Below, one piece after another: positions 248 to 4,459 of a stretch of 5,870 nucleotides of DNA. This DNA comes from Desulfobacteraceae bacterium (GTDB lineage: Bacteria; Desulfobacterota; DSM-4660; Desulfatiglandales; Desulfatiglandaceae), in assembly GCA_011048855.1 (NCBI GenBank), contig DSCZ01000291.1, positions 1-5,870 of the forward strand, in the 5' to 3' direction. A model generated the notes under the pieces. That model made no database searches. It was not told the origin of the DNA and worked only from the letters and a program-made list of their open reading frames with translations. Numbering within the stretch: the stretch's first letter is position 1; each line of letters starts with the position of its first letter. A program made the translations under genes and the position numbers.

Positions 248-730
248 TTATCGCTCAACGCGGGCGCAGTTGCTTTTCCAGGTTGTTTTACGAGAGTTGC
301 CGCAGTAACCTTCATGTCCGTAATCGGGCACAACGAAGGATAAAGATATAGTAGCAAAAAGGTCATGAGATGTCCAACAATGGTTATGAGACATGGATAT
401 GCCTAACGAGACGGTCTGTTGCGGCGGGTTTTCTTCAGCTTGTGAATGAAATTCCGAGAGCATCTGAAGCACTGAGCAGTGTTTCTTGAAACAGAAGAGA
501 GCCACCACGAAGAACAGGATGCTGGGCAGAATTCCCCAAAGGGCTCCCTTCGTGAAGTCCTGCATGATCGAGGGGTTACCCTTGTTCTCCACGGACATCC
601 ACACGAGGACGAGTGCGCCGGTGAGTGGCATGACGCCGATCAGCCCGGCTGTCGACGGCAGCTTCTTCCCGACTGCCGTGGCAATGAGAATGATGGCTAC
701 GCTAAGAACAGCTTTGATTAGTATCTGCAT
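248..730 (-). CDS. DUF3147-like small integral membrane protein with an abnormal, probably frameshifted C-terminus
   Basis: Residues 1-85 look like DUF3147/GlpM-type small membrane proteins of unknown function: a helix at 3-20 (LIKAVLSVAIILIATAV), a second around 28-46 containing the MPLTG segment, and a third at 63-81 (ALWGILPSILFFVVALFCF) followed by KKH. Such proteins are normally about 110-120 residues and end in a fourth helix. Here the frame continues to 160 residues with a hydrophilic tail unlike a membrane helix. In the +1 frame the sequence reads NFIHKLKKTRRNRPSR and stops at 403, which may be a remnant of the true end, so a deletion plus frameshift near 440-460 is likely. The start at 730 is chosen because it gives the conserved N-terminus and lies 13 nt after the cassette core at 744-750; the ribosome site (AGAAG) is weak. 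The longer frame beginning at 898 runs through the attC and intron and is not credible. Confidence 0.65.
   Translation of the reverse strand: MQILIKAVLSVAIILIATAVGKKLPSTAGLIGVMPLTGALVLVWMSVENKGNPSIMQDFTKGALWGILPSILFFVVALFCFKKHCSVLQMLSEFHSQAEENPPQQTVSLGISMSHNHCWTSHDLFATISLSFVVPDYGHEGYCGNSRKTTWKSNCARVER
348..377 (-). promoter_or_regulatory. Putative sigma70 promoter of the SGNH hydrolase cassette
   Basis: On the minus strand TTGGAC (372-377) is followed after 18 nt by TACTAT (348-353), a fair match to -35 and -10 elements. Transcription would start near 340, about 110 nt before the SGNH hydrolase ATG. The preceding gene ends in a disturbed region, so a private promoter is plausible. Judged by eye only. 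Confidence 0.4.
401..407 (-). other. Possible attC core (R') at the start of the SGNH cassette; left half of the attC not recognisable
   Basis: On the minus strand this is GTTAGGC, a strict GTTRRRY core and the same 7-mer that opens the DUF3592-like cassette. It sits between the DUF3147-like gene and the SGNH promoter, where a cassette boundary is expected. I could not find a matching inverse core or a convincing stem within about 60 nt upstream. It may therefore be what remains after a deletion that also damaged the end of the DUF3147-like gene. Other core-like 7-mers nearby (GTTGGAC at 372-378, GTTGAGC at 253-259) also lack partners. The roughly 170 nt from here to the SGNH start hold the putative promoter and leader and no other gene that I can see. 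Confidence 0.35.
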
Positions 731-743
731 AGTCTGTCTTCTT

Positions 744-795
744 GTCCAACGAAAAAGCTCAGCCGCGCGCTGTAAGCCGTCCGCCTGGATGCTGT
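744..795 (-). other. attC site, R' portion (split from its R'' end by the group II intron)
   Basis: Minus strand: ends in core GTTGGAC (744-750), a strict GTTRRRY, 13 nt before the DUF3147-like start codon. Joining 744-795 to 1064-1068 across the intron recreates a 57-nt attC whose inverse core is GCCTAAC, the exact complement of the GTTAGGC that opens the DUF3592-like cassette (1642-1648). The length equals that of the intact sites at 1642-1698 and 2039-2095. Stem pairing of the rebuilt site is weaker than in the other sites. Confidence 0.75.
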
Positions 796-1063
796 GGTGT
801 ACGCCCGACATGGGCATGGATTTATGGGGTGGAAGTCCCCTGTAGGAGTACCGGTAATGTCCGGATTGTGGACAGAAGCAACTACTAGCCGACGGCAAGG
901 GCGGCCCCGCGAGGGACGGTCCGAAGGAAGCCGTAAGCGCAAAGGTGCTTTTCTGACGGACAGAAATCGCATAGAAGGCTTAGTCTCCGGGCGAGGCAGC
1001 ACCACATGACGAAGCCCCTCTGGTACAGGAGACAGGGTAAATGCGGCAGCCCGGCTTCCCGAT
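796..1063 (+). mobile_element. Degenerate group II intron (class C, attC-associated type), 5' domain I part fused to a 3' end
   Basis: This 268-nt plus-strand insert resembles, from memory, the 5' half of bacterial class C group II introns such as that of Oceanobacillus iheyensis. It begins GTGTACGCCCGACATGGGC (797 on), with the basal CCC/GGG hairpin, then GGGGTGGAAGTCCCC (826-840), CCGAAGGAAGCCG (930-942), CTGACGGACAGAAATCGCAT (952-971) and GGTACAG...GGTAAATG (1022-1043), in the family order. The distal end CCCGAT is compatible with a class C 3' terminus (AY ending). No domain V hairpin and no reverse-transcriptase gene are present, so it can neither splice nor move by itself. It lies opposite to the cassette genes and splits an attC at GT/TA, as known for attC-targeting class C introns. 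The exact 5' base (796 or 797) is uncertain. Between 731 and 1074 there is only this element and the split attC; I see no gene. Confidence 0.75.
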
Positions 1064-1068
1064 TAGGC
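1064..1068 (-). other. attC site, R'' end fragment (3' exon side of the intron)
   Basis: Minus strand GCCTA, six bases after the frame-corrected stop of the DUF3592-like gene (1075-1077). It completes the inverse core GCCTAAC together with bases 794-795 once the intron is removed. Confidence 0.65.
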
Positions 1069-1099
1069 ATCTCTTTAGTGTAAGAGAAGGTCCTGAATA

Positions 1100-1612
1100 T
1101 CATTCGCGATCAGTTCTGCTTGAAGTGGATTCTTGGGGTTCACCCAAAGTTGACACTTTCCGTCCGGGGATACTACTTTTGAAAGAAATGATTTGACTTT
1201 TGCTTTCAGAAACAAAAGTTGACCAATAGCCTGGAGTTACTGTGAAATGTTTGCCTTCAAAATCGAATTCACAAAGAAGTTGAAACGCCCACACCTTTCT
1301 CGATCCCCCTCTCGGACCTGGGGGACCAAAGACGCTTTTGTATTCTTGGTCAATCACCTTTGCCAGTAGTTTCTTCCAGTTTCTTCTAAGGATCCTGCCG
1401 CGAAGAAGGATGCTGATGAGTCCAATTAGTAGCCCTGCTATGGAAATGGTAAATAACTCGTTAACTTTGAAACCCGCAAAAATCCCGCCTATAAAGAGGA
1501 GTGCTCCAAAAATGGCACCCCAATTTGTTTCCATCATGGCGCAAGGGTCGCTAAAGGGGATGGGTTTGATTCGCCATTCGCTGCTTTCAAGTGAACTATT
1601 GCCAGAATTCAT
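1100..1612 (-). CDS. DUF3592-like membrane-anchored protein, C-terminus frameshifted
   Basis: Counting from the upstream ATG at 1627, two hydrophobic segments lie at about residues 36-52 and 57-75, then basic RGRILRRNWKK, then a soluble domain beginning AKVIDQEY and continuing FQLLCEFDFEGKHF and TPGYWSTFVSES. This layout (membrane anchor, then a small beta domain with a YxFxG-like motif) recalls DUF3592 proteins, whose function is unknown. As read the frame ends at 1100 in a low-complexity tail. Removing one A from the A4 run (plus-strand T's at 1198-1201) opens a frame reading KVKSFLSKVVSPDGKCQLWV, then NPKNPLQAELIAND, ending at 1075. The PDG...WVNPKNP segment is what the family usually has, giving 183 residues from 1627 (178 from 1612). 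Start 1612 is chosen because GGAG lies 9 nt upstream; the ATG at 1627 lacks a ribosome site. No promoter is visible in the leader. Confidence 0.6.
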   Translation of the reverse strand: MNSGNSSLESSEWRIKPIPFSDPCAMMETNWGAIFGALLFIGGIFAGFKVNELFTISIAGLLIGLISILLRGRILRRNWKKLLAKVIDQEYKSVFGPPGPRGGSRKVWAFQLLCEFDFEGKHFTVTPGYWSTFVSESKSQIISFKSSIPGRKVSTLGEPQESTSSRTDRE

Positions 1613-1641
1613 AAGAGCAAGCTCCATTTGTTAAATGGTTT

Positions 1642-1698
1642 GCCTAACGGTCGCCATCACTTGCGGCCTTGGCCGTCAAATGCATGGCGTGGTTTGCC
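1642..1698 (-). other. attC site between cupin and DUF3592-like cassettes
   Basis: 57 nt. Minus strand: inverse core GGCAAAC (1692-1698), core GTTAGGC (1642-1648, strict consensus). Arms pair as CGCCAT/ATGGCG, CATTTG/CAAGTG (one wobble) and ACGGCC/GGCCGC around a tiny loop. It starts 2 nt after the cupin stop. The inverse core differs by one base from the complement of the cupin cassette's own core (GTTCGCC). Confidence 0.85.
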
Positions 1699-2386: not shown

Positions 2387-2664
2387 TTTCTTATTCGATT
2401 CATTACACTCGACTTTGCATTTTCATGCTCAATCCCATAGCCTGCTTCTATCTGCCCAATGGAGGTTTGTATGTCTTGAAGCAACTCGATCTTATCTTGC
2501 ATAGCCTCGTACTCGCGTGCATCCAGCAACACCGCCACACCTTTCCCGCGCTGTGTTATTATAAGAGGTCTTTTTGTATTGTGTATCTGTTTAAGGAAAG
2601 ATGCTATTCCGGTTCTGAATTCTGACATGGGATGAATATCTTCATTGATTCTAGGTCTTTTCAT
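2383..2664 (-). CDS. Phd/YefM-family antitoxin
   Basis: The 93-residue product has the Phd/YefM layout: residues 10-30 (IHPMSEFRTGIASFLKQIHN) form the first strand and helix of the DNA-binding half, residues 33-49 (PLIITQRGKGVAVLLDA) are the classic PLxITxxGKxxAVLLD motif, and residues 50-93 (REYEAMQDKIELLQDI and beyond) form the helical, probably disordered toxin-binding tail. It would neutralise the adjoining toxin and repress the operon. ATG at 2664 is preceded by GAGG at good distance. It is first in a two-gene operon with its own promoter (2688-2716) and a possible palindromic operator overlapping the -10 element. Confidence 0.9.
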   Translation of the reverse strand: MKRPRINEDIHPMSEFRTGIASFLKQIHNTKRPLIITQRGKGVAVLLDAREYEAMQDKIELLQDIQTSIGQIEAGYGIEHENAKSSVMNRIRK

Positions 2665-2683
2665 AAATTACCTCACATATAAG

Positions 2684-2699
2684 GTACATTATAACGTAC
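2684..2699. promoter_or_regulatory. Possible antitoxin operator (GTAC-N8-GTAC)
   Basis: Two GTAC half-sites at 2684-2687 and 2696-2699 flank the -10 hexamer symmetrically. Phd/YefM antitoxins usually repress their own operon through short palindromes in this position; binding is inferred, not shown. Confidence 0.4.
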
Positions 2700-2716
2700 T
2701 TAATAAGTTCGGTCAA
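2688..2716 (-). promoter_or_regulatory. Strong sigma70 promoter of the Phd/RelE-type operon
   Basis: Minus strand TTGACC (2711-2716), 17 nt, TATAAT (2688-2693): a near-perfect consensus promoter within the cassette, giving a leader of about 17-20 nt before the antitoxin ATG at 2664. It may also drive downstream promoterless cassettes (cupin, DUF3592-like, DUF3147-like). Confidence 0.8.
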
Positions 2717-2731
2717 TGTACATATTCTTTG

Positions 2732-2789
2732 GCATAACGCTGCGGATCAGGCGCGCTATCAAGCGTCGCCTGCATCCGACTTGTTGGGC
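2732..2789 (-). other. attC site between permease and RelE-type toxin-antitoxin cassettes
   Basis: 58 nt. Minus strand: inverse core GCCCAAC (2783-2789, strict RYYYAAC), core GTTATGC (2732-2738, one departure from GTTRRRY). Arms CGGATGCAGGCG and CGCCTGATCCG pair perfectly apart from one extrahelical G, a hallmark of attC. The inverse core differs by one base from the complement of the permease cassette's core GTTGGGT. The permease frame ends inside the site at 2759. Confidence 0.88.
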
Positions 2790-3859
2790 AGCCGGTCCTT
2801 TTCCTCATCAGTGTGCCCGTGCCTATGATGCAAGTCGGGCCAGTGTTTGTGCGCATGAGTCACGGGGTCATGTTCATGCATGTGCGAATGGCTCACTGTT
2901 GCCGGAAGACCGCTATGTTCGTGGTCATGATGGCCATCCATATGGTGGTGACCATGCTGGTGAAGTATCGAGTCGTGCCGGTGAACGTGTGCATGCTTCT
3001 CGGTGAAGAGCAACGCCAGCGATGCCGCAATGATTCCGGCCCCCAGCGCCTGCGTCCCCGTGAAGGTCTCACCGAGGACGGAAACAGAAAGGAGCACGCC
3101 GAAGAATGGAGCCGTCGAAAACACCATCTGACCGCGAGAGGCCCCGAAACCTTGCGCCGTGACGATATACAACGTCACGCTCAGGCCATATGCGAGCGCT
3201 CCCACAAGCAAGGCTACCAGAACCAGTTCCGGCTTCCCGACTCCACCGGCAAGAACTGCACCGAGGGTCAGATTGAACGCTCCCGCGACCAGGCCTTTCC
3301 ACAAGGTAGTCTGGGCAGGAGTGATACCGTCGATGAGCGCCGTGAAGTGATTGTCGAAACCCCAGCAGAGGCAGCCGGCAGCGACAAGGCCGACAGACAG
3401 GACACCAACATCGCCCTCACCTCCGGCCAGGAGCAGTGCGGCAACGAACGTCCCGCCTGCTGCAATCCATCCTCGTGCCGTCAGGTGTTCACGGAACACG
3501 AAATGCCCAAGAATTACAGTGGCTACGAACTCCAGATTCAGCCAGAGGGAGACAGATCCCGAACTGGCGAGCCTCAGTCCGAGCAAGAGTAACAGTGGGC
3601 CGAGGATTCCTCCCATAACAACGGCTCCTGTGAGCAGCAAGAGCGTTCGTCGACCCGCTTGCCACGGCGGCAGGAAGGACTTGCTTTGGATGACGACAGG
3701 CAAAACACCAAACGCGGCTCCGAGGTACAGCAGGCCCGCGAGGACCTGTGGCTGAATGCCCGTCAGCAAGGCCTTGCTGGCGGGGGTTGCCGCACCAAAG
3801 AGACAGGCCGAGACAAGCCCGATTCCCAGAAGCGCTTTCGTGTGCCGCTGCCCTTTCAT
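2759..3859 (-). CDS. DMT/EamA-family permease with a histidine-rich C-terminal tail
   Basis: The 366-residue protein has about ten hydrophobic helices between residues 8 and 286 in two EamA repeats (first ending near ALLLAGGEGD, second ending ALGAGIIAASLALLF). Motifs such as GAATPASKAL in helix 1 and VLGETFTGTQALGAGIIA near the end are typical of drug/metabolite exporters. Residues 289-349 form a cytosolic or periplasmic tail with 24 histidines in 61 positions, in HxH runs and a segment SHSHMHEHDPVTHAHKHWPD followed by LHHRHGH. A similar tail occurs on a recognised subset of DMT permeases and suggests metal binding, so metal export or metal-regulated transport is plausible but unproven. Start 3859 is chosen because GTGAG lies just upstream and it sits 18 nt after the cassette core; the upstream ATG at 3964 would translate the attC. 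The last residues (from about LPNKSDAGDA) are encoded within the next attC. GC-rich compared with the toxin-antitoxin neighbours. Confidence 0.9.
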   Translation of the reverse strand: MKGQRHTKALLGIGLVSACLFGAATPASKALLTGIQPQVLAGLLYLGAAFGVLPVVIQSKSFLPPWQAGRRTLLLLTGAVVMGGILGPLLLLLGLRLASSGSVSLWLNLEFVATVILGHFVFREHLTARGWIAAGGTFVAALLLAGGEGDVGVLSVGLVAAGCLCWGFDNHFTALIDGITPAQTTLWKGLVAGAFNLTLGAVLAGGVGKPELVLVALLVGALAYGLSVTLYIVTAQGFGASRGQMVFSTAPFFGVLLSVSVLGETFTGTQALGAGIIAASLALLFTEKHAHVHRHDSILHQHGHHHMDGHHDHEHSGLPATVSHSHMHEHDPVTHAHKHWPDLHHRHGHTDEEKDRLPNKSDAGDA

Positions 3860-3877: not shown

Positions 3878-3939
3878 ACCCAACGCTTGTGCATCAGCAG
3901 CGCGGCTCCGCCGCGTCCGTCTGGATGCGTTGGTTCGAA
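3878..3939 (-). other. attC site between the ParE-type toxin-antitoxin and permease cassettes
   Basis: 62 nt. Minus strand: inverse core TTCGAAC (3933-3939), core GTTGGGT (3878-3884, strict consensus). Stem elements CAACGC/GCGTTG, GCATC/GATGC and CGCGGC/GCCGCG around a GGA loop. The inverse core is the exact complement of this cassette's own opening core GTTCGAA at 4532-4538. It begins 6 nt after the frame-corrected toxin stop (3946-3948). Confidence 0.88.
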
Positions 3940-4241
3940 GATCCTTTAGACTCTCTTCTTCCAAATGCGAGGATTGCGTTTAACATGAAATACAGAAAGA
4001 ACAACAATTTTTGTTTTTTCGAGTATGAAGAAGACTGAATAAGGAAATCTTCTAATAAGCGCCCTGTGAACATTTTATATACAATTGGATAAACAAGATG
4101 ATTTCTCAGAATCGAATTGAAGAGAGCATCTAGAACAAGCAAGAACTCGGAACCAAGGCCATGAACTTGAGTATCATACCAATCAAAGGCTTCAGCAATA
4201 TCCACTTCAGCCTCTGGGCTGATGATTAACTCAGGAATCAT
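3894..4241 (-). CDS. ParE/RelE-family toxin, broken by a 1-nt frameshift
   Basis: Residues 1-56 are a clear ParE/RelE N-terminal half: IISPEAEVDIAEAFDWYDTQ (helix 1), GLGSEFLLVLDALFNSI, then LVYPIVYK. After YK the frame as read gives unrelated sequence and runs into the attC, ending at 3894. One additional A in the A4 run (plus-strand T's at 4073-4076) restores NVHRALIRRFPYSVFFILEK, then TKIVVLSVFHVKRNPRIWKK and a stop at 3946. The restored 98 residues equal the family length and include the RRFPYSVFF and VFHVKRNPRIW motifs. So the gene is either a pseudogene or carries a sequencing error. Its start overlaps the antitoxin stop by 4 nt (ATGA). The target (gyrase or mRNA) is not determinable. 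Confidence 0.8.
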   Translation of the reverse strand: MIPELIISPEAEVDIAEAFDWYDTQVHGLGSEFLLVLDALFNSILRNHLVYPIVYKMFTGRLLEDFLIQSSSYSKKQKLLFFLYFMLNAILAFGRRESKGSSNQRIQTDAAEPRC

Positions 4242-4459
4242 ACACGACTCTTAATACGTTCTCGGACAAGTGACCATGGTGATCCTGCGTTAGGATTATT
4301 ATGATATGAATCGAGTCGACGATCAATTTCAGCCTTTTCTTCATCTGTCAGAGGCACCGCCTCTGGGACTTGAGCAATGCTGTCCCAAATATCCTCAACA
4401 AGCTGAATACGCTCAGAAACGCTGAGATCCAGAATGTCCTTTTTTGCAAATGATCCCAT
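4238..4459 (-). CDS. Addiction-module antitoxin (TIGR02574/putative addiction module component family)
   Basis: The 73-residue acidic protein matches the short antitoxins paired with ParE/RelE-type toxins: a helical start DILDLSVSERIQLVEDIWDS (residues 8-27) with the family's ERIQLVEDIWDSI core, then PLTDEEKAEIDRRLDSYHNN and a C-terminal GSPWSLVRERI, each a recognised element of the family. It should bind and block the downstream toxin. GGAGG lies 4 nt before the ATG at 4459. It is first in a two-gene operon with a 4-nt overlap and has an 80-nt leader with a possible promoter. If the toxin is truly frameshifted, this antitoxin is an orphan in practice. Confidence 0.88.
   Translation of the reverse strand: MGSFAKKDILDLSVSERIQLVEDIWDSIAQVPEAVPLTDEEKAEIDRRLDSYHNNPNAGSPWSLVRERIKSRV

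Follow-up and report, generated by a model that had tools for sequence, protein, structure and literature searches.

A class C group II intron that appears to have lost its interior, inserted in an attC site of a Desulfobacteraceae cassette array

We asked what separates the two parts of an attC site in a cassette array from a Desulfobacteraceae bacterium, and how the separating segment arose. The window, by which we mean the whole stretch of 5,870 nucleotides that was analyzed (contig DSCZ01000291.1), is a cassette array with its main open reading frames (ORFs) on the minus strand; the products encoded include cupin, ParE/Phd-YefM, EamA, addiction-module antitoxin and choloylglycine-hydrolase types. 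We found that positions 799-1063 of the plus strand are a group II intron of class C, belonging to the lineage that targets attC (IIC-attC), with a large internal deletion (Table 1).

Table 1. Features of the interrupted attC site and its surroundings, in window positions
Feature	Position	Strand	Evidence
Class C (IIC-attC) group II intron with an internal deletion	799..1063 (265 nt)	+	Rfam, blastn, termini, tree
5′ part of domain I, almost to its end (GTAAATGCGGCAG)	799..1049	+	RF02001; alignment with 18 relatives
Domain VI, 3′ terminal strand CCCGGCTTCCCGAT	1050..1063	+	Match to the relatives' 3′ end
attC, part 1: R′ core GTCCAAC (744-750, plus-strand letters), L′, L″ and the last R″ bases GT (797-798)	744..798	-	Sequence
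attC, part 2: remaining R″ inverse core TAGGC, giving GTTAGGC with GT	1064..1068	-	Sequence
Core site at the start of the cassette whose attC is interrupted (plus-strand letters, GCCTAAC)	1642..1648	-	Equals the rebuilt inverse core
ORF of the cassette with the interrupted attC; hypothetical protein, no Pfam family	1100..1627	-	
ORF of the cassette that follows the interrupted attC downstream; without a Pfam family	248..730	-	

The identification is carried by domain I. The original prediction, made from the letters of this DNA, had read class C domain I on the plus strand and proposed an Rfam search as a check. That search bore the claim out, matching RF02001 (group-II-D1D4-3) at window positions 903-1069 of the plus strand. 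The score was 87.5 bits (E = 3.3e-17), compared with a gathering score of 32, and this was the sole match listed in 700-1150 at E ≤ 1, apart from a weaker overlapping match of the same clan that the tool omitted. Among 176 plasmid records, the best blastn match was an intron on a Candidatus Methylocalor plasmid (L001; 81.5% identity over 797-1045, E = 2e-58), the protein of which contains the Pfam reverse transcriptase (RT) domain RVT_1 (E = 8.1e-40). The 3′ end of this intron is domain V/VI-like by eye and scored under the Rfam gathering threshold, unlike the 3′ ends of the relatives L002, L004 and L005, which scored above it. In a tree of 20 domain I sequences, the window element formed a clade (support 99/97) with L001, the intron of genome G268 (81% identical to the window element, with 82 amino acids of RT left) and the RT-less introns of genomes G175 and G197. 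The minimum-energy fold of the 265-nt RNA was uninformative (z = −0.02), so the structural claim rests on the covariance model. As 799-1063 matches introns of unrelated genomes, a reading of the segment as part of a gene or as a cassette leader was ruled out. ORFs of at least 50 amino acids that overlap it measure 216 (minus strand), 119 (plus strand, 486-845), 95, 72, 71 and 51 amino acids; the longest is a read-through of the adjacent gene's frame, and the 119-residue ORF has its end alone inside the segment.

Both termini agree with those of the relatives. The 5′ motif (799-821) had two mismatches in 23 bases, and none of 200 shuffles was as good; the 3′ end (1050-1066) differed from that of the relatives at one of 17 bases, with none of 200 shuffles reaching even two mismatches, and 13 of the last 14 bases of the element were identical to the 3′ end of the relatives' domain VI. 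All five plasmid relatives begin as TTGT/GTACGCCC, and the four read on the 3′ side all end as CCCGAT/T. Because GTACGCCC is constant whereas the bases preceding it vary among relatives (TTTG in the Alteromonas locus L010, TTTT in one copy of locus L099), we place the 5′ end of the element at 799; the original prediction had placed it at 796. Either start gives the same GTTAGGC core, and 796 leaves the attC three bases shorter. The rebuilt attC, of which the predicted core is restored, is consequently 60 nt long and not the 57 nt proposed, the intron start having shifted by 3 nt. Its GTTAGGC is the complement of the cassette's own GCCTAAC core, as had been foreseen. The available excerpt of PMC7923331 places the insertion of IIC-attC introns within R″ on the bottom strand of attC, at the consensus TTGT/T and opposite to cassette transcription. 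The insertion point here, TGGT/T, fits this published cut with one mismatch (IBS1 TGGT, not TTGT), and the proposed antisense orientation and insertion in the inverse core agree with the rebuilt core and with the relatives' ends. The element thus shares with IIC-attC introns a class C domain I, antisense insertion in attC R″ and both termini of the lineage, and it lacks their domain V and RT/maturase gene.

The fold of the joined attC was not better than that of shuffled sequences (z = +0.51 and +0.61 on the two strands; +0.56 and +0.20 for the 57-nt version), where z-scores were derived from single-base shuffles. Of six other array stretches picked by eye, five gave z between −2.87 and −5.44, and 401-470 gave −0.24. 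Since the fold is weak, the assignment as attC rests on the two cores, the pairing of L″ (AGCATCCAG) with L′ (CTGAGCT; seven pairs and two bulged bases, read by hand), the setting in an array and the known behavior of this intron family. With its R″ box split, this attC is probably impaired, and the two adjoining cassettes may be locked together. For the protein of the 1100-1627 ORF, 57 proteins were among the matches listed, the first being identical. Searches for an uninterrupted form of the site gave no match with the 1100-1627 ORF against plasmids (tblastn), no match with window 640-798 against plasmids, and no hit for P0001 in 369 gammaproteobacterial genomes, where the uninterrupted attC of the same cassette was sought.

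Homology to domain I ends at about 1047-1049 (bases 1-251 of the query in the search for relatives, window 797-1047), and the end of domain VI follows within about 5 bases; the junction lies between about 1045 and 1051. The last columns of RF02001 align to the domain VI remnant plus exon. Several parts are absent from the window element: the strand AGTTCATG, which seems to close domain I in the relatives (pairing by eye); domains II-IV, along with the RT gene; all of domain V; and the 5′ half of domain VI, together with the branch-point region. No domain V hairpin motif was found in 799-1063, while elsewhere in the window three matches with two mismatches compared with 1.91 expected. RF00029 had no match in 700-1150, and tblastn of two intron RTs against 2700 bases from 797 gave no match. 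The original prediction of a miniature that has lost domain V and the RT, with domain I joined to the 3′ terminus, therefore holds. Its domain I, class C by the match above, is nevertheless incomplete, the closing 3′ strand being gone. Recognizable intron sequence with an essential part absent is what is termed a degenerate (truncated) group II intron; an ORF-less intron, by contrast, keeps domains I-VI and loses only the ORF, a definition that does not cover this element. Under the known rules of group II introns, the element is not a self-sufficient ribozyme, because the AGTTCATG strand, domains II-V and the 5′ half of domain VI are absent. Given the loss of domain V, the remnant would be unable to splice or move by itself.

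We consider it very probable that the element is a dead relic of an IIC-attC intron, formed by internal deletion within this attC. Comparison of ends shows that an IIC-attC intron once entered the R″ box of the bottom strand by reverse splicing, at the point between TGGT and TAGGC and in antisense to the cassettes. One internal deletion, the single step being our inference, would then have brought domain I, at about 1047-1049, up against the final 14 bases of domain VI. What is absent, namely the end of domain I, domains II-V together with the RT gene, and that side of domain VI which bears the branch point, would have been lost in this step. The deletion would be later than the insertion, which is the simpler reading; a deletion during insertion is less likely. 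This origin is favored by homology to introns with an RT or traces of one (L001 and that of G268) and by L010, which has the same kind of deletion and a close relative that retains RT. Counted against it are the IBS1 mismatch, the weak attC fold and the state of domain I, which appears not clearly more decayed than that of the relatives: the window element is changed at 8 of 136 conserved domain I columns (5.9%), compared with 0-10 changes (0 to 7.2%) in 18 relatives. Two of the eight changed columns lie, by eye, in the strand that lost its partner. In the tree, no branch of the clade is as long as that of the window element (0.14 vs. 0.076-0.11).

Preservation of the remnant through usefulness to the cassettes, for instance as an outward promoter into the 248-730 ORF, is very improbable. 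Full-length IIC-attC introns do carry outward promoters according to the available part of PMC8876359, but when 680-1150 was scanned with a promoter consensus, no site fell in 799-1063 and a single one lay outside it (748-720); a terminator scan of the same region found nothing inside the element. There is, likewise, hardly any chance that a chimeric assembly joined two places of an intron-rich genome: although the sequence comes from a single contig, both flanks fit one attC core, and an independent lineage (Alteromonas), in another assembly, has nearly the same deletion.

That second case came from a scan of an 84,980-species genome collection and of viral contigs for a domain VI end lying no more than 30 bases after a domain I end. 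The pattern demands exact letters, so more distant miniatures are missed, and the window itself lies outside the 21 genome stretches returned, of which one was real; neither of two viral stretches was. The remaining 20 genome stretches lacked a convincing domain I, and in all, 22 of the 23 stretches were rejected as chance, having either no match to the element or short, weak ones (E at best 2.8e-4), many of which lay over the pattern itself. The real one is a 304-nt mini-intron of Alteromonas sp. 1_MG-2023 (L010, 2286-2589; RF02001, 115.8 bits), in which domain I is joined to the end of domain VI, with no domain V motif and no RT. Its relative in genome G570 is 92% identical, still has 369 amino acids of RT and groups with it at support 100/99. 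The upstream flank of L010 recurs elsewhere in its genome, as attC sites do. L010 keeps more of domain VI than the window element (BLAST match over the last 31 bases); one deletion shared by the two miniatures was rejected because they lie in separate supported clades and have different junctions.

The deletion relic has one further competitor, which we hold to be rather unlikely: the intron was already deleted on entry, either as a trans-mobilized member of an RT-less family that was shortened further or through a jump of the RT from domain I to domain VI. Counting against it, second copies of the window junction (GTAAATGCGGCAGCCCGGCTTCCCGAT) were found neither in plasmids (two of 176 records cover 80% of the query, both ending before the junction) nor in E. 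coli (none of eight records covers 80%), nor among the 21 genome contigs and two viral stretches. In its favor, close relatives of the window element include class C introns that lack RT: a 758-nt intron in G175 (C396) with a domain V motif and a domain VI end, 84% identical to the window element over domain I, and a 670-nt intron in G197 (C92) with a domain V motif, 76% identical to the window element. Against RF00029, the G197 copy scored 41.5 bits and the G175 copy remained under the gathering score, which weakens the latter as support. The tail of the G175 intron occurs at four sites with different flanks (L178, L179, L180 and L101); its copies at C139 (85%), C344 (93%) and C101 (93%) each lack the 5′ part, the pattern expected of 5′-truncated retrotransposition or of later decay. 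The same genome holds an RT-bearing copy at C183. In G525 (C1; L099, minus strand, about 2487-3096 and 3387 onward), one RT-less derivative is present twice at neighboring, different attC-like sites; the copies are 95.7% alike over 256 bases, with similarity from six bases before GTACGCCC and no flanks shared beyond; in the second of them the 3′ end is gone. RT-less kin thus seem to have multiplied in these two genomes, as their sequences suggest. However, each of these RT-less families has one or more copies that retain the domain V motif, and the window element has none.

A wide spread of the G175 tail was considered and rejected, most of it being matched in G175 alone among 369 genomes (at most two candidates per genome); with the tail as query, G197 matched at 116-198 and 76-178, and other genomes from base 126 on, the part for domains V-VI. 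In the available part of PMC2882425, RT-less introns of Thermosynechococcus multiply with a driver RT, and PMC4424553, likewise in part, calls bacterial ORF-less introns rare. The literature searched, a set that missed three primary IIC-attC papers, gave no report of RT-less multiplication among IIC-attC introns. Occurrence of RT-less class C copies at several sites per genome makes trans-mobilization in integrons testable. A further idea, with little to recommend it in our judgment, is that SINE-like miniature retroelements derived from IIC-attC introns, composed of little more than domain I and the 3′ tip and served in trans by the domain V and RT of full-length or RT-less helpers, pass from attC to attC, the window element being a member without domain V; if true, this would be a bacterial parallel to group III introns. 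Mobility of the mini-element itself is unlikely.

We also surveyed the state of related copies. Around the Alteromonas genome, at least 27 of 369 genomes at class level and at least 24 of 295 at order level had domain I matches, match counts of these multi-genome searches being lower bounds with at most two candidates scored per genome. The sample comprised 60 gammaproteobacterial stretches, or 64 of 75 rows (eight rows near contig starts and three of G001 were left out), drawn with two domain I queries, so that copies with domain I were counted. A rule classed 63 domain I-bearing places, 15 of which were unresolved at contig or stretch ends. Among the 48 resolved places, 10 were two-ended and at least 1.5 kb long (nine with an RT of at least 369 amino acids, one with none seen), nine were two-ended and shorter than 1.5 kb (138 to 1056 nt; seven with a domain V motif) and five had a 3′ end without the 5′ motif. 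At most 24 had the 5′ side only, with no 3′ end within the at least 2,400 bases read, a class that the rule can inflate by missing diverged ends. Short two-ended class C introns were thus as common as two-ended RT-bearing ones (9/48 vs. 9/48). By these counts, decay is the norm among the sampled copies, a point in favor of the deletion relic, and the window copy is one of a frequent class of relics. Survey rules that start from domain V, as in the available part of PMC8919778, are blind to such copies. As a separate observation, class C introns at L118 (G423:C11), L157 (G403:C56) and L113 (minus strand, 312-449; G423:C1) do not show the usual GTGCGGANCCGCAY tip but instead a longer domain-V-like hairpin of unusual form (..GAACCGCCCATTGCA..TGCATGATGGGTGGTG.., with close variants); one of these copies is a 138-nt two-ended mini-intron.

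Among known systems, the window element shares with IIC-attC introns such as S.ma.I2 the class C domain I, the antisense insertion in attC R″ and the 5′ and 3′ termini, but without RT and domain V, and with only the 3′ strand of domain VI, it cannot be an active member. UHB.F1 (IIC-attC) and H.ha.F1/F2 (IIB), described in the available part of PMC7923331, are likewise degenerate introns within cassette arrays; however, they lack the 5′ end and keep pieces of RT with domains V and VI, whereas the window element keeps both ends and has lost the middle. In T. elongatus, the group II intron TeI3n has also suffered a large internal deletion, but it is of another intron family, and its deletion ends at DIVa1, so domains V and VI should remain; the 17 ORF-less introns of T. 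elongatus, copies without RT that multiply with a driver RT, keep the ribozyme, unlike the window element (PMC2882425, in the available part). L010 is of the same kind as the window element and differs in its separate lineage and fuller domain VI. Group III introns of Euglena chloroplasts also have domain I- and VI-like parts without domain V according to the available parts of PMC4424553 and PMC2882425, yet they are organellar, 90-120 nt long and thought to be excised with trans factors; the likeness is one of anatomy. By itself, the window element is a relic; it is of mild importance because surveys that start from domain V overlook copies of this sort, which are common in the sample.

Elsewhere in the array, an antitoxin gene (PF09720, 4238-4459) lies on the minus strand within 3894-4459 beside a 115-amino-acid ORF without a Pfam match, possibly its toxin partner. 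ORFs for a ParE toxin and a Phd-YefM antitoxin occupy 2015-2664 on the same strand, and the end of the ParE ORF overlaps the start of the cupin ORF (1701-2018) by four bases.
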